NCBI GenBank assembly: GCA_022760335.1
Contig: JALEGE010000104.1
Span: 1 to 34,553 of the forward strand
DNA length: 34,553 nucleotides
Source of the DNA: Hyphomonadaceae bacterium
Lineage (GTDB): Bacteria > Pseudomonadota > Alphaproteobacteria > Caulobacterales > Hyphomonadaceae
Direction: 5' to 3'
The notes below the pieces were generated by a model. It was not told the DNA's origin, made no database searches, and was given only the letters and a program-made list of their open reading frames with translations. Positions 6,728 to 34,397 of the stretch are shown here, in pieces. Each line of letters opens with the position of its first letter. Position 1 is the first letter of the stretch. The translations under genes were made by a program, and so were the position numbers.

Positions 6728-6729
6728 GC

Positions 6730-12630: not shown

Positions 12631-13629
12631 TTACTCGCGTTTTTCAGACAAGATCACCTTGTGGTCGGTTTTCTCCACTTGGAGACCATACATGTCTGCC
12701 ACAGTCGTGACGAAGGCATCGACTTCATTGATGCGTACGACCCCCGTGATCCGACGGTCGGCCGCGTCATTGGCGGTTAATGAAATTGGTGTTCGGGAGT
12801 AGCGATTGACTTCCTCGACAGCTTCAGAGAGAGCGGTCTCGTCGAAATAGATGTCGCCCTTGCGCCAAGCTGTTACGACTTCGAGAACCGGGCGATCGAT
12901 ATCGACCTCGTTACCTGCTTCCTCTGGCGAGTTGGCCTTGGTGTCGCGCAATCTTTCTCCGGGTTCCAGAAGAACAGACTGTTGGGTGCTACCGCTCCCC
13001 TGGCTCACCCGGACAACCCCTGAAAGTAGGGTCACTTCAATGCCCTGCAGATCATTTCGGACGATGAAAGAAGTTCCAAGTGCTTCCACAACTTGATCTT
13101 GGGTCTTCACAATGAAAGGGCGGTCGGCGTCATGGGTCACGCCGAACATGGCCTCACCGCGCTCCAGTGATACACGGCGCAAAGAGTCATCGTAGCGTAC
13201 ATCAAGTTTGGAGTTGGTGTTCAGGATGATGTTTGTGCCGTCTTCCAGTTGAACGGTTCTTTGCTCGCCAATCTCGGTTGAGTAGCTGGTCGTGTCTGGG
13301 CCAATAAGATTGGCCAAGAGAACAACAAATGCCGCGCAGGCCGCCAGGGCCACCACTTGAGAGGCCCGGGCCCAGGCGAAGCGACTATTCTGTTCAGGCT
13401 CCTCAAGGCGGAGCGCGCCCTCCAAATCTTCCCAAACCAGCAGGCCGTTCGCGAGAGCTTCGATGTCTTCTTCGCTGTCAAATTGACAGTGATCTGGGAA
13501 AGTCAGCGCCTCATCATCATGCGCACTCAGAGCATGACTCATGAGCGCCTGCTCTGCTGCAGACAGGCTGGAATCGGACACTTCAGTTTGTGGGAACCTG
13601 AAAAATCTCTTCACGATCCTTCCATCCAT
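12631..13629 (-). CDS. FecR-family anti-sigma factor / sigma regulator
   Basis: FecR proteins span the inner membrane and relay a periplasmic signal to a FecI-type sigma factor. The 332-residue product has an acidic cytoplasmic N-terminal part (1-85), one membrane helix (about 90-110), a FecR beta domain (about 118-210, with 'VQLEDGTNIILNTNSKLDVRY' and 'GEAMFGVTHDADRPFIVKT'), and the conserved W-x-KG-x-IYFDETALSEAVEEVNRYS block. It ends in an STN-like segment (267-332). The start overlaps the sigma gene's end by 19 nt, so they are coupled. The C-terminal 66 residues have the same length and closing motif (EKR) as the STN tail of the giant exoprotein encoded in the same locus. Confidence 0.93.
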   Translation of the reverse strand: MDGRIVKRFFRFPQTEVSDSSLSAAEQALMSHALSAHDDEALTFPDHCQFDSEEDIEALANGLLVWEDLEGALRLEEPEQNSRFAWARASQVVALAACAAFVVLLANLIGPDTTSYSTEIGEQRTVQLEDGTNIILNTNSKLDVRYDDSLRRVSLERGEAMFGVTHDADRPFIVKTQDQVVEALGTSFIVRNDLQGIEVTLLSGVVRVSQGSGSTQQSVLLEPGERLRDTKANSPEEAGNEVDIDRPVLEVVTAWRKGDIYFDETALSEAVEEVNRYSRTPISLTANDAADRRITGVVRINEVDAFVTTVADMYGLQVEKTDHKVILSEKRE

Positions 13630-14093: not shown

Positions 14094-14155
14094 CTTCGCT
14101 CGGCCCGCATTTTGAAGCACTTTCCGAAACAAGTGGCGCACACATCCAAGCGGGT

Positions 14156-14169
14156 TTGACAAATGTCAA
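14156..14169. promoter_or_regulatory. Inverted repeat upstream of the sigma gene
   Basis: TTGACA and TGTCAA are perfect arms around AA, 62 nt before the sigma start. The minus strand reads GTTGACATTTGTCAAAC. This shares ACATTT and GTCAA with a sequence upstream of the divergent tpsB gene (14674-14690). It may be the sigma factor's own promoter element or an operator. Confidence 0.35.
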
Positions 14170-14591: not shown

Positions 14592-14624
14592 CGCGCTCAA
14601 TATATGAATTGAGCGCGATTTTTT
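14592..14624 (+). terminator. Intrinsic terminator or attenuator upstream of tpsB
   Basis: CGCGCTCAAT and ATTGAGCGCG form a perfect 10-bp stem with a 6-nt loop, followed by ATTTTTT (six T at 14619-14624). It points toward tpsB, but no plus-strand gene ends upstream. It therefore ends an unseen plus-strand transcript, insulates the operon, or attenuates a long leader. Its T-run is on the plus strand only. Confidence 0.75.
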
Positions 14625-14672
14625 GATTTTAATTTATGTGAAGTAAATAAAAATAGCGTTTAAGTCAGTATA

Positions 14673-14700: not shown

Positions 14701-14780
14701 AGACGCCTCCCTGACCGGATTTTCATGAGCTTCGCCCTCTCGGACATGGCGCGAAGCGCAACTCTGCAAGGATGGCGTGG

Positions 14781-16439
14781 ATGCGTACGAATGCGTTGCA
14801 ATGTGTTAGCTTCTGTGTGCTGGGGATTTCCCTGGCTTTTTCTGCTCAAGCACAAGAACCAGAAGCTGCGGTCGCGGCTGAAGAAGAAGCGCGCCTGGAC
14901 ATCTTGATCTATCGCATTGTTGGGAACTCCGTGCTCGACCGGATTGATGTTGAGCGTGCGGTGATGCCGTATCTTGGTCCCGACCGGCCTGTCTCGGATG
15001 TTGAGAACGCGCGCCAGGCCTTGGTGTCTGCCTATCGCGAAAAAGGCTATGAGACGGTGGATATTCGCCTGCCGGCGCAGGATGTGCGTGGCGGTGTCAT
15101 TCGCTTCGAGGTGGTCGAGTTCGAGATCGGACGTCTGCGTGTTGAGGGCGCACGCTACTACTCTCCCGAGGACATCATGGAGCGTCTGCCTTCGCTGAAG
15201 GAGGGGCGTGTTCCAAACTACTCCGATGTCTCCCGCGAAATCGCTCAGATCAATCAGTCCACAGATCGTCTGATCACGCCCAGTCTGCGTGCCGGGGCAA
15301 CGCCCGGTACCGTGGATGTCGACTTGTTTGTGGAGGACACGCTGCCGGTGCACGGCTCTGTCGAGCTGAATGACCGGGCATCTGCCCGGACTGAGCGTTT
15401 GCGCCTGTCTGCGGCGGTAAACTACAACAATCTCTTCCAACTTGATCACAGTGTTAACCTACAGGCCCAGATCACGCCGCAGGATCTGGAGCAGGCTTGG
15501 GTGGTGTCTGCATCCTATGTGGCGCCCGTGCGCAACACCCCCTTCACGCTGGTCGGGTATGCGGTTCATTCCGACAGTGATGTGGCGGCGATCGGTGGGA
15601 TCAATGTTCTCGGGTCCGGCGATATTGTCGGCCTGCGTGGGATCATGACCCGGATCACTGGAGTGGGTAATGCGGCGCTGGTTCATCAGGTCACGGCCGG
15701 TATCGATTACAAATCCTTCGAAGAGGATTTGAGCCTTGGCGGCGGTGTCACAACCGAAACGCCCATCGATTATGTGCCGCTGTCTTTGCGCTACTCGCTT
15801 GCAAATCGACAGCCCGAGCAAAGCATTGATTTTGGTGTCGGCCTTAATTTTGGGGTTCGTGGCCTTGATGCTGACAATCAGGAATTTCAGGACAAGCGCT
15901 TCGGCGCAAGTGCCAGCTGGGTCACCTTGAAAGGTGATTTCGGGTATTCCCGCACCTTCGCAGGAGATTGGCGCGCGCGTCTGGATGGTGCCTTTCAGTA
16001 TGCCGGAAAGCCGGTGATTTCCAACGAGCAGTTCTCTGCCGGCGGTCTGGACAGTGTGCGGGCCTATTATGAGGGGCAAATCGTCGGCGATGACGGCATC
16101 GCCACTCAGTTCCAGCTCGAAGCTCCCTCGCTCTTTGATGGCAGTCTGTTCAATGAGTTCCGGCCATTTGCTTTCGCCGATGGTGCGACCCTGCGCGTGC
16201 ATCAGCCGCTGGCGGGGCAGGATGAGACCGACGAAATCGCCAGTGTCGGGTTGGGCTTGAGGGCGCAGGCATTCGAGCGGTTGAACGCATCTGTTTTGGT
16301 TTCCCATGCCCTGGTTGAGCGCAATGAGTTTGTGGCTGCCTCGGATGATCCAAATGCGGAATTGATCGAGCGCGACACACTGCTGCGGGATGTCGGTGAT
16401 GACCTGCGCATTCAATTCCGTCTGTGGGCGGATTTCTAG
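14781..16439 (+). CDS. TpsB two-partner secretion outer-membrane transporter (ShlB/FhaC/HecB family)
   Basis: TpsB proteins recognise the TPS domain of their TpsA partner in the periplasm and pass it through a 16-strand outer-membrane barrel. The 552-residue product has a signal peptide (cleavage near SAQA-25), POTRA1 (about 40-114), POTRA2 (about 116-187, ending 'RAGATPGTVDVDLFVEDTLPV') and the barrel. The barrel opens with the family motif HGSVELNDRASARTERLRL. The loop-6 lid motif, normally VRGY, reads V426-R-A-Y429 within GGLDSVRAYYEG. AAGGA lies 8 nt before this ATG; an ATG three codons earlier overlaps that site. It is the first gene of the operon that ends with its apparent substrate 5 kb downstream, an unusual separation. 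Confidence 0.93.
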   Translation: MRTNALQCVSFCVLGISLAFSAQAQEPEAAVAAEEEARLDILIYRIVGNSVLDRIDVERAVMPYLGPDRPVSDVENARQALVSAYREKGYETVDIRLPAQDVRGGVIRFEVVEFEIGRLRVEGARYYSPEDIMERLPSLKEGRVPNYSDVSREIAQINQSTDRLITPSLRAGATPGTVDVDLFVEDTLPVHGSVELNDRASARTERLRLSAAVNYNNLFQLDHSVNLQAQITPQDLEQAWVVSASYVAPVRNTPFTLVGYAVHSDSDVAAIGGINVLGSGDIVGLRGIMTRITGVGNAALVHQVTAGIDYKSFEEDLSLGGGVTTETPIDYVPLSLRYSLANRQPEQSIDFGVGLNFGVRGLDADNQEFQDKRFGASASWVTLKGDFGYSRTFAGDWRARLDGAFQYAGKPVISNEQFSAGGLDSVRAYYEGQIVGDDGIATQFQLEAPSLFDGSLFNEFRPFAFADGATLRVHQPLAGQDETDEIASVGLGLRAQAFERLNASVLVSHALVERNEFVAASDDPNAELIERDTLLRDVGDDLRIQFRLWADF

Positions 16440-16475
16440 GGCCCGGGACACACTGTGAAAGACAAGGTAAATTCA

Positions 16476-18284
16476 ATGAGTATAAGAGCGTATGTGTCCG
16501 CGATGCTGCTGACCATGGTGCCGGCGCAGGCTTTTGCGGATGATGCAGATCTGAAAGCGGCCGCAGAAAATAGCGTCTTCGAGAAATCCTTCCGTGAGCG
16601 GAGAGTGGTTCAACTCGATGCGGCAGAAGTTCCGGAGCTGACCGAAGAAGTTACAGGCGCACCGGTACTTGTTCGTCTGCACAGCGGTGTATTCGATTTC
16701 TCCAAAGCTGCGCCGGATGGGTCCGATCTTCGCTTTGTCTCGTCTGACGGAACCCCGCTGGATTATCATATTGAGCGCTTCGATCCAGTTGCTTCTCTCG
16801 CCCTGATCTGGGTGCAGATCCCCTCTGTAGAACCGGCGGTTTCGCAGCAGGTCTGGCTGTATTACAGCGATGATACCGCAATGCGGATGGACGATTCCCG
16901 TGCGGTTTATGATGGGGAGTTCGCCTACGTCCTCAATATGAATGAGGATGCGAGTGTTCCCGTCGATCAAACGGCAAATGAAAATCGGTTTGCTGCAAGC
17001 GGGATAACGCCCACTTTGGGCGGAATGGTTGCTGGTGGCATGGAGCTGCGTGCTGACAGCACGATCCGGGCGACAGCAGATAGAGCTCTGAATGTCGAAG
17101 CAGGCACCGGTCAGCTGACCTGGTCGGCCTGGATCAATCCACAGCCGGTGGACGCTGAGTCTGGTGTGGCGGCAGATGGCCTTATCTATACCAAGCTGAG
17201 TACGGCAGGAGAAACAGGTGCATCCAGACTTGAGCTTGGTATCCGTGATGGTGAGCTTTATGCCGCTCTCGGCGAGGCCGAGCTTGTTGCGGACATGTCG
17301 CTTGCAGCCGACCTCTGGACGCATGTTGCAGTGGTTGCCGATGGCCAGACGCTGCGCCTTCTTGCCAACGGTGCTGTATTGGATGAGGCCCCGGCAGCGA
17401 TGCCAGAGCTGGGCGGTGAAGACGTCATTGGTGCCGTAGGCGAAGCGCCAGGATTTGTGGGGCGTATTGATGAGGTGCGCCGTTCCAATACTGCGCGGTC
17501 TCCTTCATTCATTGCGCTGGGCGCGAGAACAGAAGGGCGCAACGCGAACTTTGTGCGTGTGGCACCTGATGGCGAGGCGACCAGGGCGGGAGAGCACAAC
17601 TATTTCGCAATCTTGTTCAATGCGCTGACGCCTGATGCCTGGGCTGTCATCGTCATTTTGGCGGTGATGTCGGCGATCTCGTGGCTGATCATGTTCTCCA
17701 AGGCGGGCCTTTTGGGGCGCACCCGGAAAGCCAACCGCGCCTTCTATAATGCATATCAAGATGCCACGCATGGTGAGCATGCTGAAATCACTCTGACCGA
17801 TACTGAATTTGGAGCGAAGTACCCTCGAGCTTCGCTCGCCCGTTTGTTTCGGGTCGGTCAGAGTGAGCTTCTGATGCGCAATCAAGGAACCGAGGTGGTC
17901 TCACCTGAGGAGGTTGCGTCCATCCGTTCCGCGCTCGACGCTGCGCAGGCGCGAGAAGAGCAGTATCTCGGAAAGCGCATGGTCTTGTTGACCATCGCAA
18001 TTTCGGGCGGGCCCTTCCTGGGGCTGCTTGGAACTGTGCTGGGCGTGATGATCACCTTTGCAGGCGTTGCGGCAGCAGGGGAGGTGAATGTTACGGCCAT
18101 CGCGCCTGGCATTGCCGCCGCGCTGTTGGCGACGGTTGCTGGTCTTGCCGTCGCGATCCCGGCTCTGTTTGGGTACAACTACCTGAATGGTCAGCTTGAG
18201 CGTCTGCTGACGGACAATCTCACATTCGTGGACCAGCTCGAAAAGCGCATCGCTGAAACCTATCGCCCGTCGCGGCGGACATAG
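16476..18284 (+). CDS. DUF2341-LamG-ExbB fusion: motor proton channel with periplasmic sensor or binding domains
   Basis: The 602-residue protein has a signal peptide (cleavage near AFA-21), a DUF2341 domain (about 55-145, 'VLVRLHSGVFDFSKA...LRFVSSDG', 'WVQIPSV...QVWLYYSD') and a LamG/concanavalin-like jelly roll (about 180-345, with 'TWSAWINPQP', 'WTHVAVVADG', 'GRIDEVRRSNTARS'). A membrane helix at about 388-410 is followed by the MotA/TolQ/ExbB channel with GPFLGLLGTVLGVMITF (about 505-525) and a third helix. ExbB normally forms the pentameric proton channel with ExbD. Here about 380 extra residues project into the periplasm and could bind a glycan, peptidoglycan or the exoprotein. ATG at 16476 has AAGG 9 nt upstream. 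exbD follows after 9 nt. Confidence 0.92.
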   Translation: MSIRAYVSAMLLTMVPAQAFADDADLKAAAENSVFEKSFRERRVVQLDAAEVPELTEEVTGAPVLVRLHSGVFDFSKAAPDGSDLRFVSSDGTPLDYHIERFDPVASLALIWVQIPSVEPAVSQQVWLYYSDDTAMRMDDSRAVYDGEFAYVLNMNEDASVPVDQTANENRFAASGITPTLGGMVAGGMELRADSTIRATADRALNVEAGTGQLTWSAWINPQPVDAESGVAADGLIYTKLSTAGETGASRLELGIRDGELYAALGEAELVADMSLAADLWTHVAVVADGQTLRLLANGAVLDEAPAAMPELGGEDVIGAVGEAPGFVGRIDEVRRSNTARSPSFIALGARTEGRNANFVRVAPDGEATRAGEHNYFAILFNALTPDAWAVIVILAVMSAISWLIMFSKAGLLGRTRKANRAFYNAYQDATHGEHAEITLTDTEFGAKYPRASLARLFRVGQSELLMRNQGTEVVSPEEVASIRSALDAAQAREEQYLGKRMVLLTIAISGGPFLGLLGTVLGVMITFAGVAAAGEVNVTAIAPGIAAALLATVAGLAVAIPALFGYNYLNGQLERLLTDNLTFVDQLEKRIAETYRPSRRT

Positions 18285-18293
18285 GGGGCGATT

Positions 18294-18698
18294 ATGCAAA
18301 CGCACCAAAAGCGCAAGCCTTATGACGAGATCAACATCACGCCGATGGTCGACCTGACTTTTGTGCTGTTGGTGATCTTCATCCTGATGACCACCGCTTC
18401 GGTGCAGGGGATCAAGGTCAATCTGCCCAAGGCCAGTTCGGCCGCCAGCCTGGCCAAGCCCACGACGCGGGCCATCACGGTAGACAGCCGCGGGCAAATC
18501 TATCTCGACACGTTTCCGGTGACGATCGAACAGCTGGAACGCGAGCTGCGCACATACAAGGCGACAAACCCGGAGTTTCCGGTCGTCATCAAGGGCGATC
18601 AGGTGACTCAGTATGGCCGCATCATGGAAGCGCTGGATGCATGCGCGCGCGTCGGGTTGACCCAGATTGGTCTGGTTAGCGAGCGTCCGCGGAGTTGA
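18294..18698 (+). CDS. exbD: ExbD/TolR family biopolymer transport protein
   Basis: ExbD forms the peptidoglycan-anchored stator dimer inside the ExbB pentamer and carries the proton-accepting Asp. The 134-residue product has one N-terminal membrane helix with that Asp (NITPMVDLTFVLLVIF, Asp20) and a periplasmic domain with 'RAITVDSRGQIYLDTFPV' and 'VVIKGDQVTQYGRIMEALDACARVGLTQIGLV'. A GGGGG purine run precedes the ATG. It sits tightly between the ExbB fusion and TonB, so the three form a dedicated energy module. Confidence 0.95.
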   Translation: MQTHQKRKPYDEINITPMVDLTFVLLVIFILMTTASVQGIKVNLPKASSAASLAKPTTRAITVDSRGQIYLDTFPVTIEQLERELRTYKATNPEFPVVIKGDQVTQYGRIMEALDACARVGLTQIGLVSERPRS

Positions 18699-18704
18699 TG
18701 TGTG

Positions 18705-19412
18705 ATGCTTGAACCGCCCAAGTCCAGCATCTGGGATAATCTGCCGGCAATCTTGCTGGGGACGGTTTTCCTTGGCCTGCTCGTGGCTCTCTTCGTCTGG
18801 CTCTTCGGTACAGCCAAGGGGCCGGCGGAGGGGCGAATGGTTCACACGGTGACCATTGATGCACCGCCGCCTGAACCCGAGCCGGAGCCTGAACCCGAGC
18901 CAGAACCTGAGCCGGAGCCAGAACCCGAACCAGAGCCAGAGCCCGAACCACAGCCTGTTGTCGAGCCGATTGAGCAAGTTCAGCCTGTCGCAGAGCCAAC
19001 TGTCAGCGATACACCCAGCGAGGCTCCAGCTGAGCCAACCAACCAATTGGCGGGTCTTGATCGTCTCGCGGATGCCGGGTCGGACAGCTTCCGGCTCAGC
19101 GCGGGCGGCGGCGGCGGATTGTTCGGCCGCGGTACTGGCGGGGGCACATCCTGGACGTCTGCAGTCTTCGTTCATATCCAGCGCGCGCTGCAGCGCGATG
19201 ATCGAACGAAGAGCGCCGAGGGAAGCATAAAAGTCTCTGTGCGGATAAATTCGCGCGGTGAATTTTACAGCGTGAAGTTGCTCTCCACCACAGGCGATGA
19301 AGACCTCGATGAGGCCATTCGGAATGTTCTCTCGAGCCTGTCGCCAATGAGAAGTGCGCCACCACCCAGTGCGCCTGATCCACTCGTCATGAACATCAAC
19401 ATCAAGCGGTAA
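18705..19412 (+). CDS. tonB: TonB-family energy transducer with Glu-Pro spacer
   Basis: TonB carries the ExbBD force across the periplasm to outer-membrane partners. The 235-residue product has one membrane helix (about 14-36), a periplasm-spanning Glu-Pro repeat (about 54-82), a Gly-rich hinge (GGGGGLFGRGTGGG, about 132-146) and a C-terminal TonB domain. In that domain 'IKVSVRINSRGEFYSVKLLSTTGDEDLDEAIRNVLSSL' is the classic strand-helix signature. The initiation ATG is the second codon of a longer GTG frame. It lies 6 nt after exbD. No TonB-dependent receptor is encoded in the window, so its partner may be the TpsB, the porin or the exoprotein's STN tail. Confidence 0.93.
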   Translation: MLEPPKSSIWDNLPAILLGTVFLGLLVALFVWLFGTAKGPAEGRMVHTVTIDAPPPEPEPEPEPEPEPEPEPEPEPEPEPEPQPVVEPIEQVQPVAEPTVSDTPSEAPAEPTNQLAGLDRLADAGSDSFRLSAGGGGGLFGRGTGGGTSWTSAVFVHIQRALQRDDRTKSAEGSIKVSVRINSRGEFYSVKLLSTTGDEDLDEAIRNVLSSLSPMRSAPPPSAPDPLVMNINIKR

Positions 19413-19492
19413 TGTGGGGGATTAAGATGTTGAAAAACAAGAAAAATATTGAACTTTCGAAACTAATTCTGCTCCGAAAAGGGAACTCTGGA

Positions 19493-21079: not shown

Positions 21080-21589
21080 ATGTTCAAGTCAATGCAAGGA
21101 CTTTGTGCCGGTCTCGCCTTTGCGATTGCGTTCCCGGCTGTTGCTCAAACTCCCGATGGGGGCGCCTCAGGCGCCTCCACATCAGGCGCAGTTGTTCAGG
21201 ACTGTCCGCCTTTGGGCGAAGCACGAATCGACTGCCTTGAGTATCGTCTGGCGCGGCAAACTCAAATGGCGACGAATGCGCGCCAGCAAATGGAAGCCTT
21301 GCGTCAGGAGACGACGCTCAAGGATGAGATGATTGCGCTTGGCATTGAGCGCAACGCCGAGCTCTATTCCATCGCCAGTGAGATCGTTGAAAAGGGCATC
21401 TCCCCGCGCTCGATGGAGCCGTTTCTCCAGTTTCGCCGCGTTGAGATGGAAAATCTCATGCAATCCTATGAGGACCGGCTCCGGCAGGCGCGAATTTATC
21501 CGTCCACACTCCCACCCAGCGTTCAAAAACGCATGGATGAGGAATTGTCCCAACAACAAGGCTCACACGCGGAAGGCGGCGGATCCTAA
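21080..21589 (+). CDS. Small periplasmic coiled-coil protein of unknown function
   Basis: The 169-residue product has a signal peptide (cleavage near AVA-22), a Gly/Ser/Ala linker, a short Cys pair (C-PPLGEARID-C) and then a long charged helix (about 55-150). It ends in a Gln/Gly-rich tail. No domain is recognised. It lies 15 nt after the porin and 52 nt before tpsA. By position it may be a periplasmic chaperone for the giant exoprotein or an adaptor between TonB and the outer-membrane proteins; nothing in its residues settles this. Confidence 0.8.
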   Translation: MFKSMQGLCAGLAFAIAFPAVAQTPDGGASGASTSGAVVQDCPPLGEARIDCLEYRLARQTQMATNARQQMEALRQETTLKDEMIALGIERNAELYSIASEIVEKGISPRSMEPFLQFRRVEMENLMQSYEDRLRQARIYPSTLPPSVQKRMDEELSQQQGSHAEGGGS

Positions 21590-24600: not shown

Positions 24601-27600
24601 TTTTTGCCGATGATGTGGTTCTCGACACCAGCGCGGGTTGGTACAATGAGTATGAGTCCAGGGATGCTCTGACGCTCGGACTTCAGAAGCCTCGTCCCCT
24701 GCGTTACGATATCCGCATTGATGCCGGCGACATCACGCTGGGACAAAATCTGTTCTCACGCTCGCGCGAAGATTCTGCGCTTGTCCTGCCTGAGACCATG
24801 GTGCTGAAGCTCGCCGGCGGCGGTTGGGCAAATCGTGATGGCGAGGTTGTCGGTGGACGTGGCGGCACGCTCAGCGTGAACGCGTATACGAACAACAATG
24901 TCGATCTTTCGGCAATCTATAATGCCGAAATCCTTGGCCTGGGCGGAAATGGCGGCTTTGCACTCGCCTCGCCGCTCACTTTCTATATCGGTGATGGCCC
25001 TGGCGAGTTCCCGGCGCTTCCCGTCACCGAAGACATGGCTATGGGTGAAGATGACCCCATCGACATGCCGATCGAAGTGGAGGAGCCGGAAACGGAAGAC
25101 TATATCCTGATCTCACCAGATCTGTTCTCTGAGAATGGATACTCTTCTGTTGCCATCACGGGCGACCGCATCATGGTCACGGATGGCACGATCATTAATG
25201 CGGCAACCAAAACCCTGGGGCTGCGCCCGGCGAGCCTCGATGGCGGTCTTGCGCCCTGGATTTTGGCGGATACTGGCGCAGATATTTCCCAGCTGATCGA
25301 AGTAACAGACATTCCTTTGGGCTTCCGGGCTGAAGGACTCAGCCGGGGTGTGGACATCACATTCTCAACACAGGGCGATCTGGATACTATCAGCGAGGCC
25401 AGCGGTACTATCGTCATGGGCGAAGGCAGCCTGGTTCGCACCGATGTCGGCGGATCCATCTCTGTGCTTGGCAGCGGCATGAACCCGATCCACATTCTGG
25501 GTACGCTTGAAGCCAATGGCGGACGCATAGACATCATCGGCAGCGAGGGTGCAGCGCCCACGCAAGCAGGAACCGTCATTCTGGGCGAGAATGCTGTTCT
25601 GCGCTCTCAAGGCGCGGCTGTCATCACCGAGCGTAACACCTCGCCGCAAGGCGAGTCCTGGCAGGATGGCTATGTCGCAGATGGTGGCGAGATCACGCTT
25701 GCAGCCAATCAGGTGACTTTCGAAGATGGTGCGCTGCTGGATGTCCGCGGCGGACAGGGACAGTTCGACATCCGCCCGGAGAGTGGTGAAACCAATACGC
25801 GTGTTCGCAAGACATTTTCCTCCAATGGCGGCCGTGTCGAAATCTCCGCTCAGGTGCTGGATATTGGTGGCGGGAGTTACCTCGCTCAGGCTGGTGGCGA
25901 AGATGCGCGAGGCGGCACATTCGCGCTCAACTATCTCAGCAGCTACACCGGTGCACCCGAAGGGCTGGATCCATCGCGCTATGAGGCGCTTGTCACAAGA
26001 ATGGAGCTGTATGACCGGGTAGGATTGTACAGAAATTCCTCCTTCCAGTCCGTGCCTTTGTACGGCACCGATTTGAGCGAGCTTGCACTGGTTGTGTCGA
26101 CACCGGTCAATATCCAGGAAAGTCTGGTTTTCGCCGACAGGTCGGAGCTGATCGCGTATCTGCAAACGCTGGATGTGCCCGCCGCTGGCCCGCCACCGAT
26201 CTTGGTCATCGGAGATCCGGAAGTCGATCTGGGGCTTGATGCATTTGGCGCTGGAGGAGGTATTGGCGATCCTGGGTTCATTGAAATGCTCGCCGGAATT
26301 CGTTTCCGCTATGAGCTGCTCCCGGCGTATGATGGTCCCGAGCGCGTGGCCTACTTGTCGATCGATGCGATCAATGCCGGTGGATTTGCCAATCTTGATC
26401 TGGATATCGCACCAGCAGTCGTGTTTGCTGGAGACGTCAGCCTTGGCGGTATGACGGATTCTGGGACCTATGCCTTCGATACCGTATCCATCACCTCACC
26501 GAACCTGATGGCGGCCGATGGCGCGAATGTGTCTCTGGACGCCCAGGTCCTGAACTTTGCGACACTCACCGACGCGAGCTTCAACCAGAATGCTTTCGAC
26601 ATAGCTATGGCCCAGGCCAATGTTGGCACGCCAGGGTCCGAGGCCGTCTTCACGGCCAAGAGTGGCACGATCACGGATATCGTCGATGCGAACTTCCGCG
26701 GTTTCGATACCGTAAATCTGTCAAGTGACGGCGATATCCGATTGCGCGGGTACGAGATTACCCCCTTCCAGTCCAATAATGGTCTCGACACACAGCTTTA
26801 TGGCGCGTTGAAAACAAGCGGCGATCTCAACCTGAAAGCGGATCAGGTCTATGCTGCGACTGGACGTGAATTCACGGTCCAGGCCGGAGGCGATCTCACA
26901 ATCTTTGCCCAGGATGAAGGGCAGGCCCTCAATGGCACGCCGCTGGAAGCGGCCGCCAGACTGATCCTTGAAGCTGAGAACATCACCCAGGGTGGCATTG
27001 TTCGCTCACCACTTGGCGAAATCGTACTGCGCGCCACGGGAGAGGATGGCACAGTCACCTTCCTGGATGGCAGCATTACCTCTGCCTCCTCGGACGGCAA
27101 TGTGGTGCCATATGGTGAGCTCAACAATGGCGATACCTGGATCGATCCGACCGCCCAGGGGGCCCTTGCAGAGGAACGCGAGCTGCGTGTTCTGCCGGAA
27201 CGCCGTGTTTCAATCTCCGGCGACAATATTGATTTGCAGGACGGCGCGCTGGTCGATCTGTCGGGGGGCGGCGATCTCATCGCGAGCGAATTCACTCCCG
27301 GTTTCGGCGGTACAGTGAACTGGCTGACTGGTTACTACGACAAGTCTTACGAATGGGTCGAAGCGCCCGGTGAGATTTATGCCATCATTCCGGATTTTGA
27401 AGGCAATGTCGCACCACTCGGCCTCACCGATGCGGGGCCACAGGTTGGTGAGCGGATTTACTTGTCTGGCGGCAGCGGCCTTCCGGAAGGCTACTACACT
27501 CTGTTGCCGGCCGAGTTTGCCTTGCTGCCCGGCGCGTATCGCGTGACGGCGCAGCATCATTATGATGGTGATTATAGCGGTGTTTCGCTTGGGACATCTG

Positions 27601-30600
27601 CTTCCCTGCTGGATGGGTCCTCATTGCAGGCAGGGTATCGTTTTGTGGGTGATGAAAGGTTGCGTGACCCGCGCACGACGGCCTTTTTGGTGATGCCGCG
27701 CGAAACGCTGTTCCTGCGCTCAAGTTATAATCTGCAACAGGCAACCTCTTTCTTCCAGTCTTCCGAATTCCTCGAGAAGACGCTGCGCAGAAACCAGCCG
27801 CTCCCTGAAGCGCCACGCTCGCCGCTTGATGGTGGCAGCATTGTCCTGGCTGCAACGCAGTCCATGATTTTGAATGGCGACCTCGACATGCGCGCTGTGG
27901 AAGGTGGACGCGGTGGTCTAGCTGACATTCAGGCGGACAGCATCCTTGTGGCTGGAGCAGAAACCGATCTGTCAGCCTATGATGGCTATCTGGTTCTTCA
28001 GAGTGAACAGCTTTCGGAGTTTGGTGCCTCCAGTCTTCTGTTCGGTGGCTATCGCCAGCAGGGTGATCTCAATCTGGAACTGACGGTCGGTGCATCCGAC
28101 ATCGTGGTCGACAATGCAGGTTCCAGCTTAACAGGTGAGGAGTTCCTGTTTGCCTCGCGTGGTGCGGTCACAGTCAAGGCAGACAGCACCATTGAGACGA
28201 CGGGTGAAAGTTCCGGCAATGCGTCAGACCTGCAGGTTATCCCTGTTGCGGAGCGCCTTGTTGATGACAAGGGAACGGAAGATGTCGCAGACGATGAGCC
28301 GATCCATGGCGTAATCGACTATGGCTCTGTTCTGCGGGTATCGGCGAATGGCCAGATTGATGTTCTGCGTGATGGATTGGGTGTGGAAAATTATGCTGCA
28401 CTCTCGGCCAATCCTTTGCAGCTGGAACAGGTTAACCAGGTCCGGGCCTCGTTCGGTCTTCCCCCGCTGCGCACCGATGATCTCACGGGGCTGATCAATA
28501 TCGAAACAGGCGCAAGTCTGACAGCTTCCGGCTCCTTGTTGCTTGATGCGACGCGCAATTCGATAATTGATGCAGGGGCAGTTGTGTCCGCGCCGCAGAT
28601 CGGTGCGGCGGCTTCTCGTGTGAGCATCGGTGCGGTGCCCGGCGATGTGGAAGGCCTCGTCTTCTCCGGTGGATCGCTGGGACAACTTGCCGATGCCCAG
28701 GATATCGCCCTTCGCAGTTATGGCGCGATCGATTTCTATGGCGGCATTACACTGGCTGCGTCTGACAGCTTGTCTCTGGATGCTTCAGAGTTGCGTATCC
28801 TAGAAGGAGATGGCGAGACCGTTCGTGTGACGGCTTCCACGCTGACCTTGACCAATACATCGGGCGGTTCCGGCGAGGCGACACAAGGTGATGCTGCGCT
28901 TCGCCTGGAGGCTGACAACATCTACCTTGCCGGTGCCGACAAGTGGGTTTCGGGTGTTGATACTGTCCAGATGATTGCAGGTGAACGTGTCGTTGGCCGA
29001 GACTTTGGTGGCTTGTTTGTCCCGGGCGCACTGTCGATCGACGCAGCGTCAATCACGGCCGAAAGCGGTGGCTCGGTGACATTTGATGCGCAAGGCGATG
29101 TCAGATTGCTGGCAAATGGGACTGTGCTGGACCCTCTCGCCACATTTGGTGCCACGCTGAATGTCCTTGGGGCGAGCCTGACAAGTGAGGCGCAGTTTGC
29201 CCTGACAGGTGGCGCGGTGAACCTGCGCGCCCGTTCCGGCGACCTTGTGCTCACTGGCGGTGAGATTGATGTAACGAGCGCCGAAGTTGAAATCTTTGAC
29301 CGGCTGATCGGTGTTGGAGGAGGCTCTGTTTCGCTGATATCCGACACGGCAGACATTGTCGTTGGCGAGGGTGTAACGGTCGATGTTTCCGGTGCTGGAG
29401 CGGCTGGTGATGCTGGGCGGATCAGCCTTGATGCCGGGTTGGGCCAGATTCTGCTGAACGGATCCCTGATCGGCAACGCGCCCGAGGGCGGTCGATCGGG
29501 GACTGTTGAGTTCATCGGTCAGGAACTGACGGGTATAGGCGAACTCAACCAGGCTCTTGATGCGGGCGGCTTCCTCGAAGCGCGCCGTTTTGTGAGCCGG
29601 CAGGGTGACATTACGCTAGATGGCACTGTGACAGCGCGGAATGTCTCGGTCGTAACCAATGATGGCGACATCACCGTTACAGGCACTGTTGAGACTGTGG
29701 GTGAAGGTAGGGGCGAGATTCAACTCGCTGCCTCTGACAATTTGAATCTGACCAGCACTGGCCGGCTTTATGCCCGGACAGGCGCCCAGGGCGGGGCCGT
29801 GCTGCTCGAAACACGCGGTGCCAACAATGGACAGATCATTCTGGCTTCAGGCTCTGTAATCGATGTTGGCGGCGGTGCTGAAGATGGCGGGATCGTGCGC
29901 TTGCGGGCTCCACAGGTGGGTGGCAATGATGTCGCCATCGGCGCGGTTGATGCCGAGATTGTCGGTGCGCAGTCCGTGCTCGCGGAAGCTTTCCGCAGCT
30001 ATGACAATGTGTCGGTCATTGATGATGCCGTTATCACCGCGGTGATCGCGGATGCCGACGCATTCATGGTCAACTCCCCGGCAAATACTGCCCGTTTTGG
30101 CGGGATTGAGATTACACCGGGCATTGAGCTTCGCAATGATGGTGACATGGAACTGGTGAGCGACTGGGACTTGTCGTCAACACGCTATAATGGCTTGCCA
30201 GGGGTGCTCACTCTGCGTGCGGCTGGTGATCTCCTGGTCAATGCCAACCTGTCAGATGGCTTCGATGGCACCACGCCGGATGCGGCCTTGCTCAGCGGTC
30301 CGAGCTGGTCTTTGAACCTGGTTGGTGGAGCCGATCTCTCCAGCCCGAATTCGCTTGCTGTTCTGCCGGTTGGTCTTCTCGATCAAGATCGTGGGTCCGT
30401 CATTATCGGCGGCACCCCGGATACAATAGAATATTATCTGCGCGCAGATACGGGGGCGAGCCGTCTTTATCTCCTGGGCGAGGATGGCCGCTTCCTGAAC
30501 AGTTTGCCGACCGGGCTTGGAGCCTCCACGCAAGCCTATAATCCGGCTTATTTCTTCGAGTTGGATCGGGATGTTGACGGTGATTATCTCCATCCGGTCA

Positions 30601-33600
30601 CCGGGGATAAGATCCTCATTGATCCGGCAACGGGTGACTATGTTGATACCGCGCTCTTTGCCCGGCGTCCGTTACCCTGGGTGGCGCTGGACAGCAGCCT
30701 GAGCAACATACCAAATCAGGATCTCTCCAGCATTGGAACGCTACTGATTTCGAGCCGAGATCCACAAAACTATCTCTCGGCCGTTGTTGGGTATCTGCAG
30801 TGGGATAACAGCACAGGCTATTCCGTGAGGACCGGTACAGGAGACATCAATGTCGCCAGTGGCCGTGACTTCGTTCTCCAGGAAAAACCCTCGGTGCTCT
30901 ATACGGCTGGTGAAACTGCAGACCCCATAGATGGCTTCATCCCTGCAATCAGCGGCTACACGCCAACCAATGGGGGTGACATCACGATCCGAGTGGCCGG
31001 TGATGTTCATGGCAGCGCGAGCTGGCAACTGCCTTCCGCGTGGCTGCGGCAGGCTGGGGTTGTCCGCGATGGTGCCTTCCTTGAAGATGATGGTTTCTCG
31101 GGCGGTCTTCCCGGCACCTTCCATCAAACCAACTGGTTTATCGATTTTGGCCAGTATCAAGCCGGAGTTGGCGCGCTTGGAGGCGGTAATGTCATTGTCG
31201 ATGCCGATGGCGACATTCTTGATCTGACGGTCAATATTCCAACAACCGGTCGTGTGGCCGGTGGGCGCACCCCGGAAGAACCGACAAGCTTCCACCAGAC
31301 GGGTGGAGGTGACCTCATCGTCAATGCGGGCGGCGACATACGCGCCGGGGTCTTTTATGTTGGCGATGGTGAAGGCAAGATCTCGGCCGGAGGCTCGATC
31401 ATTGGACGAGAAGATGCGGTTGCCCGTATCGATACCTTCGCACGAAGCGCAGATACCCAAGGCTGCCTCACCGGCAATGCGGTATCGCCATGCTATGTGC
31501 ATGCGGATCCATCCGAGTTCAGCCGCTATCAGGACCTGTACACGATCTTCTACACATCTGGCGGCCAGCTCGATGTTCGTGCTGGGGGTGACATCAATGT
31601 GGATGCCGTTCTCGATCCTTTGGCGCCGGAATATTTTGAAGATGCAGATGTGCTGCTGAGCTATACCGATGATGCCTCAGTGTCGTTCTTCTCAGCGGGC
31701 GGTGACATCAAGCTGTGGAACAATTCGCTCAACATTGCCGCGCTTCGAGAACTGGGTGCCGTGATGGAGCGCGCCACGTACTTCGAAAGCGTCCAGGGCG
31801 AGAGCTCTATCAACTTCGAGACCGGTCTGGATGTGGAACTCTGGCCTGCCACAGTTCTGGCAACTGCAGCAGCAGGGGACATTTACAGCTATGGCGGTCT
31901 CTTTTTGGCGCCTTCGCCCACCGGAAACCTGGAGCTTATCGCACGTGACAATGTCCAGATCGGCCTGTTTGCGGAGCCCGGATTGAGCTTGAATGCGCTG
32001 GAACGCCAGCGGGCAAACTATCTCAGTGCCACCGATGGTATCTTCATGAGCCAGGCGCTTGCGGAGTTTGTGCCGTCACCGGACAATCCGCGTGCAAGCG
32101 GCGGGCGTTTGAACAGTGTTGGCTTGAGATGGGCCGGAGGGCTGCCGCAGCTCTTCTCCGCGGAAATCCCACCAATCCTGCATCTCGGCGATTCCGACCC
32201 GGCACGGTTCTATGCCGGAAGAGGCGATGTGATCTTCTCGGATATCGTCACCTTGCCGAAAGAGCTGGAAGTGCGCGCTGGGCGGCACATTTACTTCCCG
32301 CAACTGCGTATACAGCATAACAATCCAGATGATCTCTCGCTGTTCAAGTCAGGCGGAGGAGTCTACTTCGACCCCGATTCCTTCGTTGATCTCCAGGGTG
32401 ACGGGCGCCTCGAATTTGAGGTTGGTACGGATTTCTGGATGCCAGCTTATCGGTTCTCCAATCTTGGTGGCACAAGTCCGGTGCGGGCAACGCAATATGC
32501 CACCTGGAATGAGCGCTTCGGGATCGTTACCCGCCGGCCTGTTATTGGTGGATACTCCATCACGCCTGCTGAAGAGTGGCAGCCCAACTCCGATGTCGCG
32601 GATATCTCGATTATGGTCGGCCTTGAACAAGAGCCAAATTATGAAGGCTTTGCCGACTGGCTCTTCAACCCGGAAGCCGTTGATACGCCTGACTATGCGC
32701 TGGTCGATGCTGGCAATGGTCAGCGCCTGTCTATGTATCTGTTCGACCGCCTCAATCCGCGTGCGGATCGTGGCGTCGACCCAGTCCTGATCGAGAGCGC
32801 AGAGCTGGCACAAGGCTTTGTGAACTATGTCCGCGAGCAGCAGGGACTGAATCCGCTCGCTACCGAAGCTGCACAGCAGGCCTATCTGGATGAGGCGTGG
32901 GGCTACTGGCTGACCATTCCGGAAGGACAGGCGACGCCCTATGACAGCTTGCTCCCGCGTGGAGAGGCTGCGCTCGGTGCCCGACCGGAGTTCTATCTGC
33001 CGGAAAAATCCGAAGGCCTTGTCAACTATGTTCGCCGGATGAGCGGGCTTGCTCCGCTTGCCACCCAGGATGAGCAACTGGCTTATCTGGATGAAGCCTG
33101 GGCGCTGTGGAACGAGATGGATGTCAAGAACAAGACACCCTTCTTCCGCGACACGCTCTATCATGAATTGCGCACGACTGGGCGTGAAGGCAATGATCCC
33201 GGAAGTGAGCGCTATACCACCACATTCCGGGGCTATGATGCGATCGCGAAACTGTTCCCGGGCGCACAGCTCGCCTCCGATGAGGAGCTGGGCGATGGTG
33301 AAGTTCGCTGGGACGGTGACTTCCAGGCCTATGCTGGACGAGTGCTGTCCCGCGGCGGCGATGGCAATATCGAGATCATGGTTCCCGGCGGCCAGTTGGT
33401 ACTTGCCAATATTGCAGCCACACCTGGGCAGACGGGCCAGAACGTTGCGACCGATTCCGGTGTCATCACGGAGAGTGGAGGAGCAATCAGCCTGTTTACG
33501 CATGACAGCATTTCCCTGAATGCTTCGCGCGTCATGACAGCGAAAGGCGGCAACATTCTCGGTTGGTCGTCCTGGGGCGATATTGCGGCTGGGCGGGGCG

Positions 33601-34397
33601 CCAAGACGTCCATTTCTCCGCCAGGGTATGCGTATGATTATAATGCCTGGTTCGATCTCGAGCGCGTCTCCGCCGGTCTGCCGACAGGGGCAGGGATCTC
33701 GACCCTGGCGACGGTGTCTGGTGCGCCGACCGCCGATGTTGATCTCATCGCTCCAGCGGGTGTGATTGACGCAGGCGATGCCGGCATTACCGTTTCAGGT
33801 AACTTCAACGTCTTTGCTGTCGAAATCCTTGGTGCCGACAATATCGATGTTTCGGGTGTGTCCACGGGCCTGCCGACACCGCCGACGGCTCCTCCAACTT
33901 CGCTCGATATCGATACCAACGACAAGAATGAGGTTGTGAACAAGGTGCTCGATGACGCCATCAATCTGGTCCAGCAGGACCGCTTGGTGACCTCTCCATC
34001 CCTGATCGATGTGCAGATCGTCGATGATCCATGTGCAAGTGGTGGAGCTGGCGATCAGGCGTGTCTGTCAGACGCTCCAGCTGAATCCGGAGATGGGTTG
34101 CAAGACACGGCACCGGTCGCGGATGAAGCGGCCTCGCCTGTGGCTTCGATCGACGACCCACTTCCTGAGATCGCTTTCAACATGCCGGCTCAGCCGCTTG
34201 AGCGGGCGGTTCGGCAAGTTGGGGATCAGGCAAAGATCACGGTCCTGTATGACGCAGAGGCTCTCGATGGGATCTATACCCGGGCTTTCAGTGGCGTCAT
34301 GGCACCAGATCAGGCGCTGTTGCAGATGCTTTCTGCCGAGGCAGTTACCGTGAAGCGGACGGGGCCGCGCGCGCTTCTGCTTGAAAAACGCAACTAG
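21642..34397 (+). CDS. Giant TpsA filamentous-haemagglutinin exoprotein with C-terminal STN domain
   Basis: The 4251-residue protein starts at the ATG at 21642 with AGGA 9 nt upstream. It has a long signal region (1-40, extended n-region before the hydrophobic core). Two TPS secretion modules follow (about 83-165 and 177-260). The body is a beta-helix of Gly/Asp/Asn-rich coils (about 280-3700). A helical 67-residue tandem repeat (3725-3826) is followed by a DUF3739-like region (about 3900-4080, 'AGRGAKT', 'DLIAPAGVIDAGDAGI'). The C terminus has a Cys-x9-Cys loop (4131-4141), an acidic Pro/Ala linker and an STN domain (4176-4251). Only five Cys occur: one in the signal region and two close pairs (3275/3284 and 4131/4141). 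It is probably a surface adhesin or matrix protein. The STN tail is unusual for TpsA and links it to the local FecR/sigma and TonB genes. Confidence 0.93.
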   Translation: MTRSILPACDIHKSAMKLMTTVSFASLSLALSFNSSAVAQEQPFGTMVGMQNGTVTLPNGQLSQWTGANAPMIGLDEDGRPLMTIEQTESKALLDWEDFRLQTNEVLEFQQQSENWIAVNRVHGNQAAEIHGELRAPGKVFIFNDNGVLIGEDAIISTRTLVTGQGVSDVNIDGNVTTITQSQERAILNWSDMSTQAGELMKFDQERTDWIALNRSLSENPTRLAGDIEADGHVYLVAPEGLGIAGDVTAQQVIASQLDIVDEQFLEGFSKVIELGGVSAHFSNSWQREPDPRRSSDIPISEYLETLEGGPRRLDPNDPLRDQLRIESGATITTGNKGAIVLIGNAVTNEGTLSIQDEGQVVLAAGEHVWLTPEEDDQSNERFEAVSGFWNSVRFGENGAQRIYDQFVVIDSAAELEVIEGATGLDYEMGDTISYNEWYGYGGFEPLFAAVGKYLEARADAVAIQNDHVARNTGSILSSGGGRVDFRGMQLEQLGVIDLQSTANFRAGVDMEARLYSYLQNREDNEDGPTLGNNGTVIFGENSLTQITPDPDAIDTIALSEGAQSIGSLEINAFRVHMEDNSIIHMPSGRVSIWLDEGSKFKGISSQAGGVDNESGTRFMMEDGALIDLSGWDQTVLPMSYHVVKGRAYAAQLANSPLQRDGVLYRQEIAVDRRYGTDIVDWESFDNLTQGTLEQFLTNGGTFALNGDNDFIMKSGSVIDVSGGVTTYEDGYVTTTHLRRLDGTLIDIREADPDELYMGLANEWVTYDLKWGQQTKYNVPLVSSIQRLYESSYQEGGDAGVIDILSPDAILQGTMRGEVVVGRYQRLNMPEMGQFLIGTAGEGDKEFNANNILIEAMDRLVEANFGLTDNLEDQFGGLFGVEFDEALNETGENAESGTVTSDNTLLISGDFFSRSSMGSYTIGQSTVTLDAEGARVPYSIIVEDGVDIDLSGGASLNLFADNTGGIYFGGDVRTEGGDISITGGSLVFADDVVLDTSAGWYNEYESRDALTLGLQKPRPLRYDIRIDAGDITLGQNLFSRSREDSALVLPETMVLKLAGGGWANRDGEVVGGRGGTLSVNAYTNNNVDLSAIYNAEILGLGGNGGFALASPLTFYIGDGPGEFPALPVTEDMAMGEDDPIDMPIEVEEPETEDYILISPDLFSENGYSSVAITGDRIMVTDGTIINAATKTLGLRPASLDGGLAPWILADTGADISQLIEVTDIPLGFRAEGLSRGVDITFSTQGDLDTISEASGTIVMGEGSLVRTDVGGSISVLGSGMNPIHILGTLEANGGRIDIIGSEGAAPTQAGTVILGENAVLRSQGAAVITERNTSPQGESWQDGYVADGGEITLAANQVTFEDGALLDVRGGQGQFDIRPESGETNTRVRKTFSSNGGRVEISAQVLDIGGGSYLAQAGGEDARGGTFALNYLSSYTGAPEGLDPSRYEALVTRMELYDRVGLYRNSSFQSVPLYGTDLSELALVVSTPVNIQESLVFADRSELIAYLQTLDVPAAGPPPILVIGDPEVDLGLDAFGAGGGIGDPGFIEMLAGIRFRYELLPAYDGPERVAYLSIDAINAGGFANLDLDIAPAVVFAGDVSLGGMTDSGTYAFDTVSITSPNLMAADGANVSLDAQVLNFATLTDASFNQNAFDIAMAQANVGTPGSEAVFTAKSGTITDIVDANFRGFDTVNLSSDGDIRLRGYEITPFQSNNGLDTQLYGALKTSGDLNLKADQVYAATGREFTVQAGGDLTIFAQDEGQALNGTPLEAAARLILEAENITQGGIVRSPLGEIVLRATGEDGTVTFLDGSITSASSDGNVVPYGELNNGDTWIDPTAQGALAEERELRVLPERRVSISGDNIDLQDGALVDLSGGGDLIASEFTPGFGGTVNWLTGYYDKSYEWVEAPGEIYAIIPDFEGNVAPLGLTDAGPQVGERIYLSGGSGLPEGYYTLLPAEFALLPGAYRVTAQHHYDGDYSGVSLGTSASLLDGSSLQAGYRFVGDERLRDPRTTAFLVMPRETLFLRSSYNLQQATSFFQSSEFLEKTLRRNQPLPEAPRSPLDGGSIVLAATQSMILNGDLDMRAVEGGRGGLADIQADSILVAGAETDLSAYDGYLVLQSEQLSEFGASSLLFGGYRQQGDLNLELTVGASDIVVDNAGSSLTGEEFLFASRGAVTVKADSTIETTGESSGNASDLQVIPVAERLVDDKGTEDVADDEPIHGVIDYGSVLRVSANGQIDVLRDGLGVENYAALSANPLQLEQVNQVRASFGLPPLRTDDLTGLINIETGASLTASGSLLLDATRNSIIDAGAVVSAPQIGAAASRVSIGAVPGDVEGLVFSGGSLGQLADAQDIALRSYGAIDFYGGITLAASDSLSLDASELRILEGDGETVRVTASTLTLTNTSGGSGEATQGDAALRLEADNIYLAGADKWVSGVDTVQMIAGERVVGRDFGGLFVPGALSIDAASITAESGGSVTFDAQGDVRLLANGTVLDPLATFGATLNVLGASLTSEAQFALTGGAVNLRARSGDLVLTGGEIDVTSAEVEIFDRLIGVGGGSVSLISDTADIVVGEGVTVDVSGAGAAGDAGRISLDAGLGQILLNGSLIGNAPEGGRSGTVEFIGQELTGIGELNQALDAGGFLEARRFVSRQGDITLDGTVTARNVSVVTNDGDITVTGTVETVGEGRGEIQLAASDNLNLTSTGRLYARTGAQGGAVLLETRGANNGQIILASGSVIDVGGGAEDGGIVRLRAPQVGGNDVAIGAVDAEIVGAQSVLAEAFRSYDNVSVIDDAVITAVIADADAFMVNSPANTARFGGIEITPGIELRNDGDMELVSDWDLSSTRYNGLPGVLTLRAAGDLLVNANLSDGFDGTTPDAALLSGPSWSLNLVGGADLSSPNSLAVLPVGLLDQDRGSVIIGGTPDTIEYYLRADTGASRLYLLGEDGRFLNSLPTGLGASTQAYNPAYFFELDRDVDGDYLHPVTGDKILIDPATGDYVDTALFARRPLPWVALDSSLSNIPNQDLSSIGTLLISSRDPQNYLSAVVGYLQWDNSTGYSVRTGTGDINVASGRDFVLQEKPSVLYTAGETADPIDGFIPAISGYTPTNGGDITIRVAGDVHGSASWQLPSAWLRQAGVVRDGAFLEDDGFSGGLPGTFHQTNWFIDFGQYQAGVGALGGGNVIVDADGDILDLTVNIPTTGRVAGGRTPEEPTSFHQTGGGDLIVNAGGDIRAGVFYVGDGEGKISAGGSIIGREDAVARIDTFARSADTQGCLTGNAVSPCYVHADPSEFSRYQDLYTIFYTSGGQLDVRAGGDINVDAVLDPLAPEYFEDADVLLSYTDDASVSFFSAGGDIKLWNNSLNIAALRELGAVMERATYFESVQGESSINFETGLDVELWPATVLATAAAGDIYSYGGLFLAPSPTGNLELIARDNVQIGLFAEPGLSLNALERQRANYLSATDGIFMSQALAEFVPSPDNPRASGGRLNSVGLRWAGGLPQLFSAEIPPILHLGDSDPARFYAGRGDVIFSDIVTLPKELEVRAGRHIYFPQLRIQHNNPDDLSLFKSGGGVYFDPDSFVDLQGDGRLEFEVGTDFWMPAYRFSNLGGTSPVRATQYATWNERFGIVTRRPVIGGYSITPAEEWQPNSDVADISIMVGLEQEPNYEGFADWLFNPEAVDTPDYALVDAGNGQRLSMYLFDRLNPRADRGVDPVLIESAELAQGFVNYVREQQGLNPLATEAAQQAYLDEAWGYWLTIPEGQATPYDSLLPRGEAALGARPEFYLPEKSEGLVNYVRRMSGLAPLATQDEQLAYLDEAWALWNEMDVKNKTPFFRDTLYHELRTTGREGNDPGSERYTTTFRGYDAIAKLFPGAQLASDEELGDGEVRWDGDFQAYAGRVLSRGGDGNIEIMVPGGQLVLANIAATPGQTGQNVATDSGVITESGGAISLFTHDSISLNASRVMTAKGGNILGWSSWGDIAAGRGAKTSISPPGYAYDYNAWFDLERVSAGLPTGAGISTLATVSGAPTADVDLIAPAGVIDAGDAGITVSGNFNVFAVEILGADNIDVSGVSTGLPTPPTAPPTSLDIDTNDKNEVVNKVLDDAINLVQQDRLVTSPSLIDVQIVDDPCASGGAGDQACLSDAPAESGDGLQDTAPVADEAASPVASIDDPLPEIAFNMPAQPLERAVRQVGDQAKITVLYDAEALDGIYTRAFSGVMAPDQALLQMLSAEAVTVKRTGPRALLLEKRN
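21888..22415 (+). repeat. Tandem duplication of the TPS secretion module inside TpsA
   Basis: Residues 83-164 and 177-258 share one pattern with a constant 94-residue offset. This is seen at W96/W190, W116/W210 and N120-R121/N214-R215. The pattern is the TPS-domain core: 'ALLDWEDF' then 'VLEFQ', 'W.AVNR' and 'GKVFIFNDNGVLIG'. The second copy has diverged in the normally invariant NPNG turn (VAPEGLGI). Confidence 0.7.
32814..33119 (+). repeat. 67-residue tandem helical repeat in TpsA
   Basis: Residues 3725-3760 and 3792-3826 both read G(F/L)VNYVR....GL.PLAT...Q.AYLDEAW..W. The unit recurs once after 67 residues, interrupting the beta-helix with an alpha-helical module near the C-terminal end. 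Confidence 0.75.
34167..34394 (+). other. STN domain coding segment at the extreme 3' end of tpsA
   Basis: Residues 4176-4251 match the STN (secretin and TonB N-terminus short) domain: 'FNMPAQPLERAVRQVGDQAKITVLYD', then 'FSGVMAPDQALLQMLSAEAVTVKR', ending LLEKRN. STN domains are known from FpvA/FecA-type signalling receptors, where they contact FecR-type regulators, and from secretins. An acidic, Pro/Ala-rich linker separates it from the Cys loop. Confidence 0.85.

Follow-up and report, generated by a model that had tools for sequence, protein, structure and literature searches.

The window, which is the whole stretch of 34,553 nucleotides analyzed here, constitutes an entire contig of a draft genome that is 97% complete (G000:C29). 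Positions 12631–34397 carry two genes on the minus strand, encoding a sigma factor and a FecR protein, and a divergently oriented plus-strand series that runs from tpsB to tpsA with short gaps between the genes. Gene set, coordinates and strands given in a preliminary description of this DNA were borne out, and Pfam backs the named families.

The FecR-type anti-sigma regulator comprises 332 amino acids (13629–12631, minus strand; Pfam FecR, 2.8e-23) and is preceded by the gene for a FecI-like ECF sigma factor (14093–13611, minus strand; Pfam Sigma70_r2 and r4, NCBIfam sigma70-ECF), which overlaps the start of fecR by 19 bases. The open reading frame of the sigma factor opens at a TTG at 14162, while its relatives start at the equivalent of an internal ATG at 14093; judging from this comparison, the latter is probably the true start and corrects the former. 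FecR consists of a cytosolic part, one transmembrane helix and a periplasmic solenoid followed by a C-terminal STN-like domain. When modeled with AlphaFold, the periplasmic part proves to match PupR (6ovk_R; E 3.3e-18, TMt 0.88). In several VreA-type loci described below (L065, L089, L095, L125), a twin-arginine-like RR...GG stretch precedes the transmembrane helix of FecR; the FecR of the window does not have it.

The plus-strand series starts with the outer-membrane transporter TpsB (14772–16439; Pfam ShlB, 5.4e-20, and POTRA_2, 3.9e-12), followed by a DUF2341-LamG-ExbB fusion of 609 amino acids, a proton channel with a large periplasmic N-terminal part (16455–18284; MotA_ExbB, 7.4e-27; DUF2341, 4.4e-15; Laminin_G_3, 5.7e-14), ExbD (18294–18698; 1.8e-30) and a TonB-family protein (18702–19412; TonB_2, 4.5e-7). 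Next come an outer-membrane protein of the Porin_5 family (19412–21064; 5.8e-124), the counterpart of Pseudomonas aeruginosa PA0696, which has been described as a putative outer membrane porin (PMC7035377), and a small exported protein recognized from its translation (21080–21589), the middle part of which is predicted to be helical and which has homologs at the equivalent position in the tailed loci described below. The series ends with the TpsA exoprotein of 4251 amino acids (21642–34397), bearing a TPS secretion domain at residues 83–175 (21888–22166; Pfam, 1.2e-19) and a DUF3739 domain at residues 3969–4079 (33546–33878; Pfam, 3.3e-27). TpsA, with its N-terminal TPS domain, and the linked TpsB, which combines POTRA with a ShlB-type barrel, together make up a two-partner secretion (type Vb) system.

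Genes for tRNA-Cys and tRNA-Asn lie just before the locus (11926–11999 and 12451–12526), and the GC content drops from about 0.62 to about 0.55 at these genes. Both features suggest an acquired island beside a tRNA gene; the contig, whose end lies 156 bases past tpsA, yielded no tRNA-derived repeat that would mark an integration site. Flagellar genes flank the locus at 137–7859 and encode a flagellar rod protein, FlhA, FliR, FlhB, a T3SS/flagellar-type ATPase and a DUF1217 protein.

An STN Domain at the C-Terminus of TpsA

According to the preliminary description, TpsA ends in an STN domain, and this assignment holds. Pfam makes no STN call in full-length TpsA, and on the isolated tail the STN model reaches 18.7 bits (E 0.0015), below the cut-off of 28.4. 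On the other hand, with the tail as query, the N-termini of TonB-dependent receptors of about 1000 amino acids were matched in relatives with E-values up to 2.8e-8, and NCBIfam aligned the tail with residues 28–101 of FecA (E 7e-5). An AlphaFold model of the tail, built from three sequences only, is of fair confidence for just the last ~80 residues, in which the order of strands and helices is that of the STN topology. The best match of this model in the PDB, as determined by Foldseek, is FpvA (E 5.5e-6, 32% identity, 1.5 Å over 73 columns). The signaling domains of PupB (TMt 0.81) and FecA (TMt 0.78) were also retrieved, and signaling domains of transducers rank above secretin N0 domains. The possibility that the STN call was mistaken was rejected on the basis of the AlphaFold fold, the Foldseek matches and the NCBIfam alignment with FecA.

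The tail is kept in 14 further TpsA copies, and its dN/dS of ~0.04–0.29 in four related pairs indicates purifying selection, so it is not a product of chance. By sequence comparison and structure prediction, the last ~80 residues of TpsA (34149–34394, plus strand) are thus confirmed as an STN signaling domain of the transducer type. FecR and the tail moreover match the two chains of one crystal complex, since PupR is the partner chain of PupB therein. The domain does not occupy its usual place at the N-terminus of a plug-and-barrel receptor. It terminates TpsA, in an operon without a receptor gene. The authors of the PupR structure knew all other STN domains from positions N-terminal to further domains (PMC7186176), which makes a C-terminal STN domain on an exoprotein an unusual architecture.

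Between DUF3739 and the STN domain, the strand PSLIDVQIVDD (33996–34028) is the counterpart of a strand S[IV][IF]TV[EQR]VLGFG, e.g., SIITVEVLGFG, that is situated near the C-terminus in 71 of the 78 TpsA proteins without tail that were checked (e.g., L053–L129). Carriers of the latter are mostly accompanied by a TonB system of their own, and the strand could be a TonB contact. To the eye, the sequence in the window resembles a TonB box.

Tailed Loci and Their VreA-Type Relatives

TpsA proteins with a DUF3739 domain are uncommon in the class, occurring in three out of 289 genomes upon even sampling. A contig scan with a single C-terminal sequence as query yielded no matches; a query in the form of an alignment succeeded. 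The scan of the genome collection provided 80 named loci, among which only two, from a Sphingomonas MAG and from Asticcacaulis endophyticus, feature the STN tail, and the tailed set was enlarged by searching the families of these two genomes. Including the window, 15 tailed TpsA copies were obtained, eight from Sphingomonadaceae and seven from Caulobacterales, the latter order being inferred from named matches. They include an incomplete case in which the tailed TpsA resides on a 4.3-kb contig (G683). In G831 (L253, L254, L273), a tailed TpsA fragment consists of a 794-residue frame with no operon in the 31 kb upstream, and is either broken or misassembled.

Genes for a sigma factor and FecR adjoin the operon in all 13 tailed loci with readable upstream DNA, the window among them and one of them (G619a) read across its contig ends, and in none of the 13 is a VreA-type or other STN gene present beside this pair. 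Among loci without tail, a VreA-type gene adjoins the sigma-FecR pair in every distinct case that has the pair (45/45; 46 loci counted as 45, as G529 and G916 appear to represent the same species). The VreA-type proteins have 216–327 residues and combine STN with a C-terminal TonB domain that is recognizable in nearly all of them (for one of them, Pfam STN 2e-11 and TonB_2 2e-4). In the fetched range of ten further untailed loci, which does not contain sigma-FecR genes, an STN gene was not found either. The complementarity yields a Fisher p of 3e-13, calculated for a single configuration and ignoring shared descent. The tailed loci were collected through the tail, which is thus a selected feature; no such selection acted on the occurrence of sigma-FecR or on the lack of VreA. 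The refuting condition named in the preliminary description, namely that homologous loci usually lack the sigma/FecR pair or the STN tail, had a divided outcome: most homologous TPS loci do not have the STN tail, but those that do are always accompanied by the sigma-FecR pair (13/13).

HMM matches establish that TpsB, ExbB, ExbD, TonB and the porin are homologous between tailed and VreA-type loci, and complete loci of this TpsA family nearly always possess a dedicated ExbB-ExbD-TonB motor, whether or not TpsA is tailed. One genome, G744, contains a locus of either kind. In most untailed alphaproteobacterial loci from Caulobacterales and Sphingomonadaceae, a second short TonB_C protein is encoded beside the VreA-type gene (L038:6675–7313 and equivalents); it is absent from tailed loci. 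Several betaproteobacterial loci (L052, L056, L063, L074, L099, L103, L115, L118, L129) have a sigma-like open reading frame directly after tpsA (~10.9 kb), with neither an adjoining FecR nor an STN gene.

A single clade (support 99) unites the 13 tailed loci in the ExbB tree; it is the sister group of the alphaproteobacterial VreA-type loci and is nested within the VreA-type loci as a whole. The tailed arrangement therefore arose once within this kind of locus and was then spread or inherited across two orders, and with a single event behind all tailed loci, the complementarity with VreA amounts to effectively one evolutionary replacement. In the best trees, the tailed FecR proteins likewise form a single clade (98), located among receptor-associated FecRs and apart from the VreR clade (99); tailed sigma factors and FecRs group with receptor-type FecIR pairs and not with VreIR, although a joint clade with the latter is not rejected (AU p ~0.085). 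Exchange of the entire sigma-FecR-STN cassette is favored by these trees, albeit not proven. The tail from the window scores 74 bits against STN domains of receptors and 53 bits against those of VreA, but many members of the receptor set were retrieved through their likeness to the tail, so these scores do not settle derivation from VreA or from a receptor.

Two genomes harbor two tailed loci each (G619 and G1076; L237–L239, L242–L245, L271). In G619, TpsB, ExbB and the porin are 100% identical between the two copies, while identity is 61% for the sigma factor, 43% for FecR and 53% for STN. In G1076, ExbB and ExbD are 98 and 100% identical, as opposed to 43% for the sigma factor, 39% for FecR and 34% for STN. 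Such near-identity of the motor genes next to diverged signaling and exoprotein genes gives the impression of gene conversion or of a motor block that was copied recently. An unchanged motor combined with diverged signaling parts is what would be expected if each TpsA pairs with its own FecR, the pairs being insulated from one another while using a common motor. Once motor, TpsB and porin are corrected for, STN distances across 12 loci track those of sigma factor and FecR (partial Mantel p 0.0005–0.048), with p-values of 0.0005 for the cytosolic part of FecR, 0.0045 for the sigma factor and 0.033 for periplasmic FecR. DUF3739 co-varies with STN as well (p 0.0045). The correlation is thus in part due to co-inheritance, and we regard the Mantel result as supportive only.

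Relation to PUMA3 and Other Known Systems

The preliminary description knew of no characterized system with this combination of genes. That statement has to be withdrawn, because PUMA3 of P. aeruginosa has nearly the same gene set. PUMA3 comprises VreA, a protein with an STN and a TonB/TolA-like domain, the sigma factor VreI and the FecR-type regulator VreR; the cluster contains vreA-vreI-vreR, pdtA, pdtB, exbB2, exbD2, tonB4 and PA0696–PA0701, and the system controls pdtA, pdtB, exbB2, exbD2, tonB4, the putative porin gene PA0696 and others (PMC2729926, PMC4971064, PMC7035377). Llamas and coworkers had noted in 2009 that PUMA3 clusters elsewhere accompany genes for TPS, ExbBD and PA0696 (PMC2729926). 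As in PUMA3, an ECF sigma factor and a FecR-type regulator are found in the window by a large TpsA/TpsB pair, an ExbB-ExbD-TonB motor, a porin, a small exported protein and an STN domain within the system. Control of the operon by VreI is a feature of PUMA3, whereas control by the sigma factor of the window locus is presumed; regulation by phosphate and PhoB likewise belongs to PUMA3 (PMC2729926, PMC4971064, PMC7035377). The main difference resides in the STN domain: in PUMA3 it is part of a separate periplasmic protein, VreA, with its TonB/TolA-like C-terminal domain, whereas the window locus is devoid of VreA and STN ends TpsA. In addition, sigma factor and FecR from the window do not lie close to the VreI and VreR clades in the best trees, although a joint clade is not rejected. 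None of the Pseudomonas TpsA proteins in the scan of the genome collection has an STN tail. The locus appears to belong, in variant form, to the cell-surface signaling loci of the PUMA3 (Vre) type, which control two-partner secretion with a dedicated motor; the new element is the location of STN on TpsA itself. No description of an STN-tailed TpsA was found in the open-access literature on two-partner secretion and the STN domain.

With signaling by TonB-dependent transducers (FecA-FecR-FecI, FpvA-FpvR, PupB-PupR, FoxA-FoxR), the locus shares an STN domain of the transducer fold, a PupR-type periplasmic domain in FecR, an ECF sigma factor and a TonB system. It differs in that STN is carried by a secreted TpsA rather than a 22-stranded receptor, is C-terminal instead of N-terminal and does not imply uptake of a siderophore-type ligand. 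Bordetella FhaB/FhaC offers a parallel of another kind, a large TpsA with a TPS domain secreted by its TpsB. Two-thirds of FhaB are threaded through the transporter from the N- to the C-terminus while the C-terminal prodomain stays in the periplasm (PMC8263021). A regulatory role of this periplasmic part has been shown for FhaB and is presumed for the TpsA of the window, but FhaB, as far as described, has neither an STN tail nor a linked FecR or sigma factor and is controlled by the proteases DegP and CtpA (PMC8263021).

Secretion-coupled control of a sigma factor is realized by FlgM-FliA in flagella. As in that system, export of a protein would serve as the signal for transcription, but the machinery differs, and contact with the membrane-bound anti-sigma factor would be made by a domain of the secreted product itself.

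TpsA as a Putative Partner of FecR

TpsA is very probably the STN partner of FecR, as indicated by sequence comparison and structural models. The preliminary description had gone further and cast the exoprotein as the signal-carrying partner, such that sigma activity would depend on its state of secretion or on surface contact. The 13/13 versus 45/45 complementarity and the match of tail and FecR to two chains of one signaling complex support the partnership well, while the reading as a whole finds only partial support. We consider it fairly likely that TpsA acts as its own FecR-signaling partner, with its secretion state setting sigma activity, within a PUMA3-type locus. The gene set, the folds of STN and FecR, the complementary distribution with VreA, the single origin and the divergence of the signaling parts in duplicated loci have been shown above; docking of the tail on FecR, sensing of the secretion state, the direction in which regulation works, the part played by TonB and transcription of the operon by the sigma factor are what we infer.

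In the usual form of such a locus, FecR is paired with the separate periplasmic STN-TonB_C protein VreA; here, its place would be taken by the extreme C-terminus of TpsA. TpsA would enter the periplasm via Sec and leave through TpsB N-terminus first, so that the STN tail would be the last part left inside and could dock on the STN-like half of FecR. Once TpsA has been fully secreted, released or clipped, or once the locus-encoded TonB pulls on the strand preceding STN, the tail would be removed or reoriented, whereupon FecR would become exposed to proteolysis, the sigma factor would be freed and the operon transcribed. Contact between STN and FecR shields the anti-sigma factor from proteolysis, the transducer protecting it as long as the signal is absent (PMC11637429), and it is from this protection and from the retention of the FhaB prodomain that occupancy of FecR by the tail is extrapolated. 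This full version, in which the secreted exoprotein is the transducer, its C-terminal STN informs FecR about completion or stalling of the passage through TpsB, and the dedicated TonB motor acts on the strand before STN, is put forward tentatively, at somewhat less than even chances. Deletion of vreA in P. aeruginosa left VreI-dependent expression and virulence unchanged (PMC4971064, PMC7035377), and sigma activity in this best-studied relative may hence not require the STN partner.

A convincing sigma-dependent promoter motif was not detected in the window by motif search. Motifs returned by Gibbs sampling were dismissed as AT-rich blocks. Sites resembling AGAGTC-N8-GTAA occur in five tailed loci, all from sphingomonads, 65–192 bases before the first gene of the operon, whichever gene leads; about 0.008 such sites are expected per region, the motif having been found post hoc.

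The same partnership might operate with the opposite sign, the docked and retained tail activating the sigma factor such that stalled or anchored TpsA raises expression. This would conform to the classical activating view of FecA-FecR summarized in PMC11637429, but the protection of the anti-sigma factor by the transducer in the absence of a signal, reported in the same source, speaks against it; the present data do not decide the sign, and we hold this variant to be unlikely, though worth serious consideration. Alternatively, the tail could serve mechanics or stability by holding TpsA back or letting it go, either as an anchor in the periplasm or as a handle for the locus-encoded TonB, with no signaling to FecR. 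The presence of the motor in nearly all complete loci irrespective of the tail would fit such a role, as would the finding that the extreme C-terminus of FhaB governs prodomain processing without any sigma factor (PMC8263021). It would, however, leave unexplained why sigma-FecR genes accompany the tail in every readable locus, where the tail replaces the separate STN gene of all the others, and why the tail is nearer to signaling domains of transducers than to secretin N0 domains, and we judge it improbable. That FecR answers to another transducer encoded elsewhere, STN being a redundant or decaying add-on, agrees with the grouping of the tailed sigma factors and FecRs with receptor-type pairs but is very improbable given that the tail is under purifying selection, that no other STN domain in the draft genome of the window matches it (the Pfam STN scan there being too insensitive to decide), and that no TonB-dependent receptor gene adjoins sigma-FecR in tailed loci, the sole nearby receptor-type pairs (G1076b, G831) being separate.

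Since STN and the secreted protein form one polypeptide, removal of ~80 residues would put the idea that the exoprotein is read by the regulator to a direct test. Two-partner secretion is regarded as independent of TonB, and an STN domain borne by TpsA offers a possible reason why this TpsA family possesses a TonB motor of its own. If signaling by the exoprotein as outlined above proved true, it would represent a checkpoint for completion of type Vb secretion. For PUMA3, it would provide a candidate for the signal that induces the anti-sigma factor (PMC4971064, PMC7035377), by suggesting that VreR, too, responds to the secretion state of TpsA.
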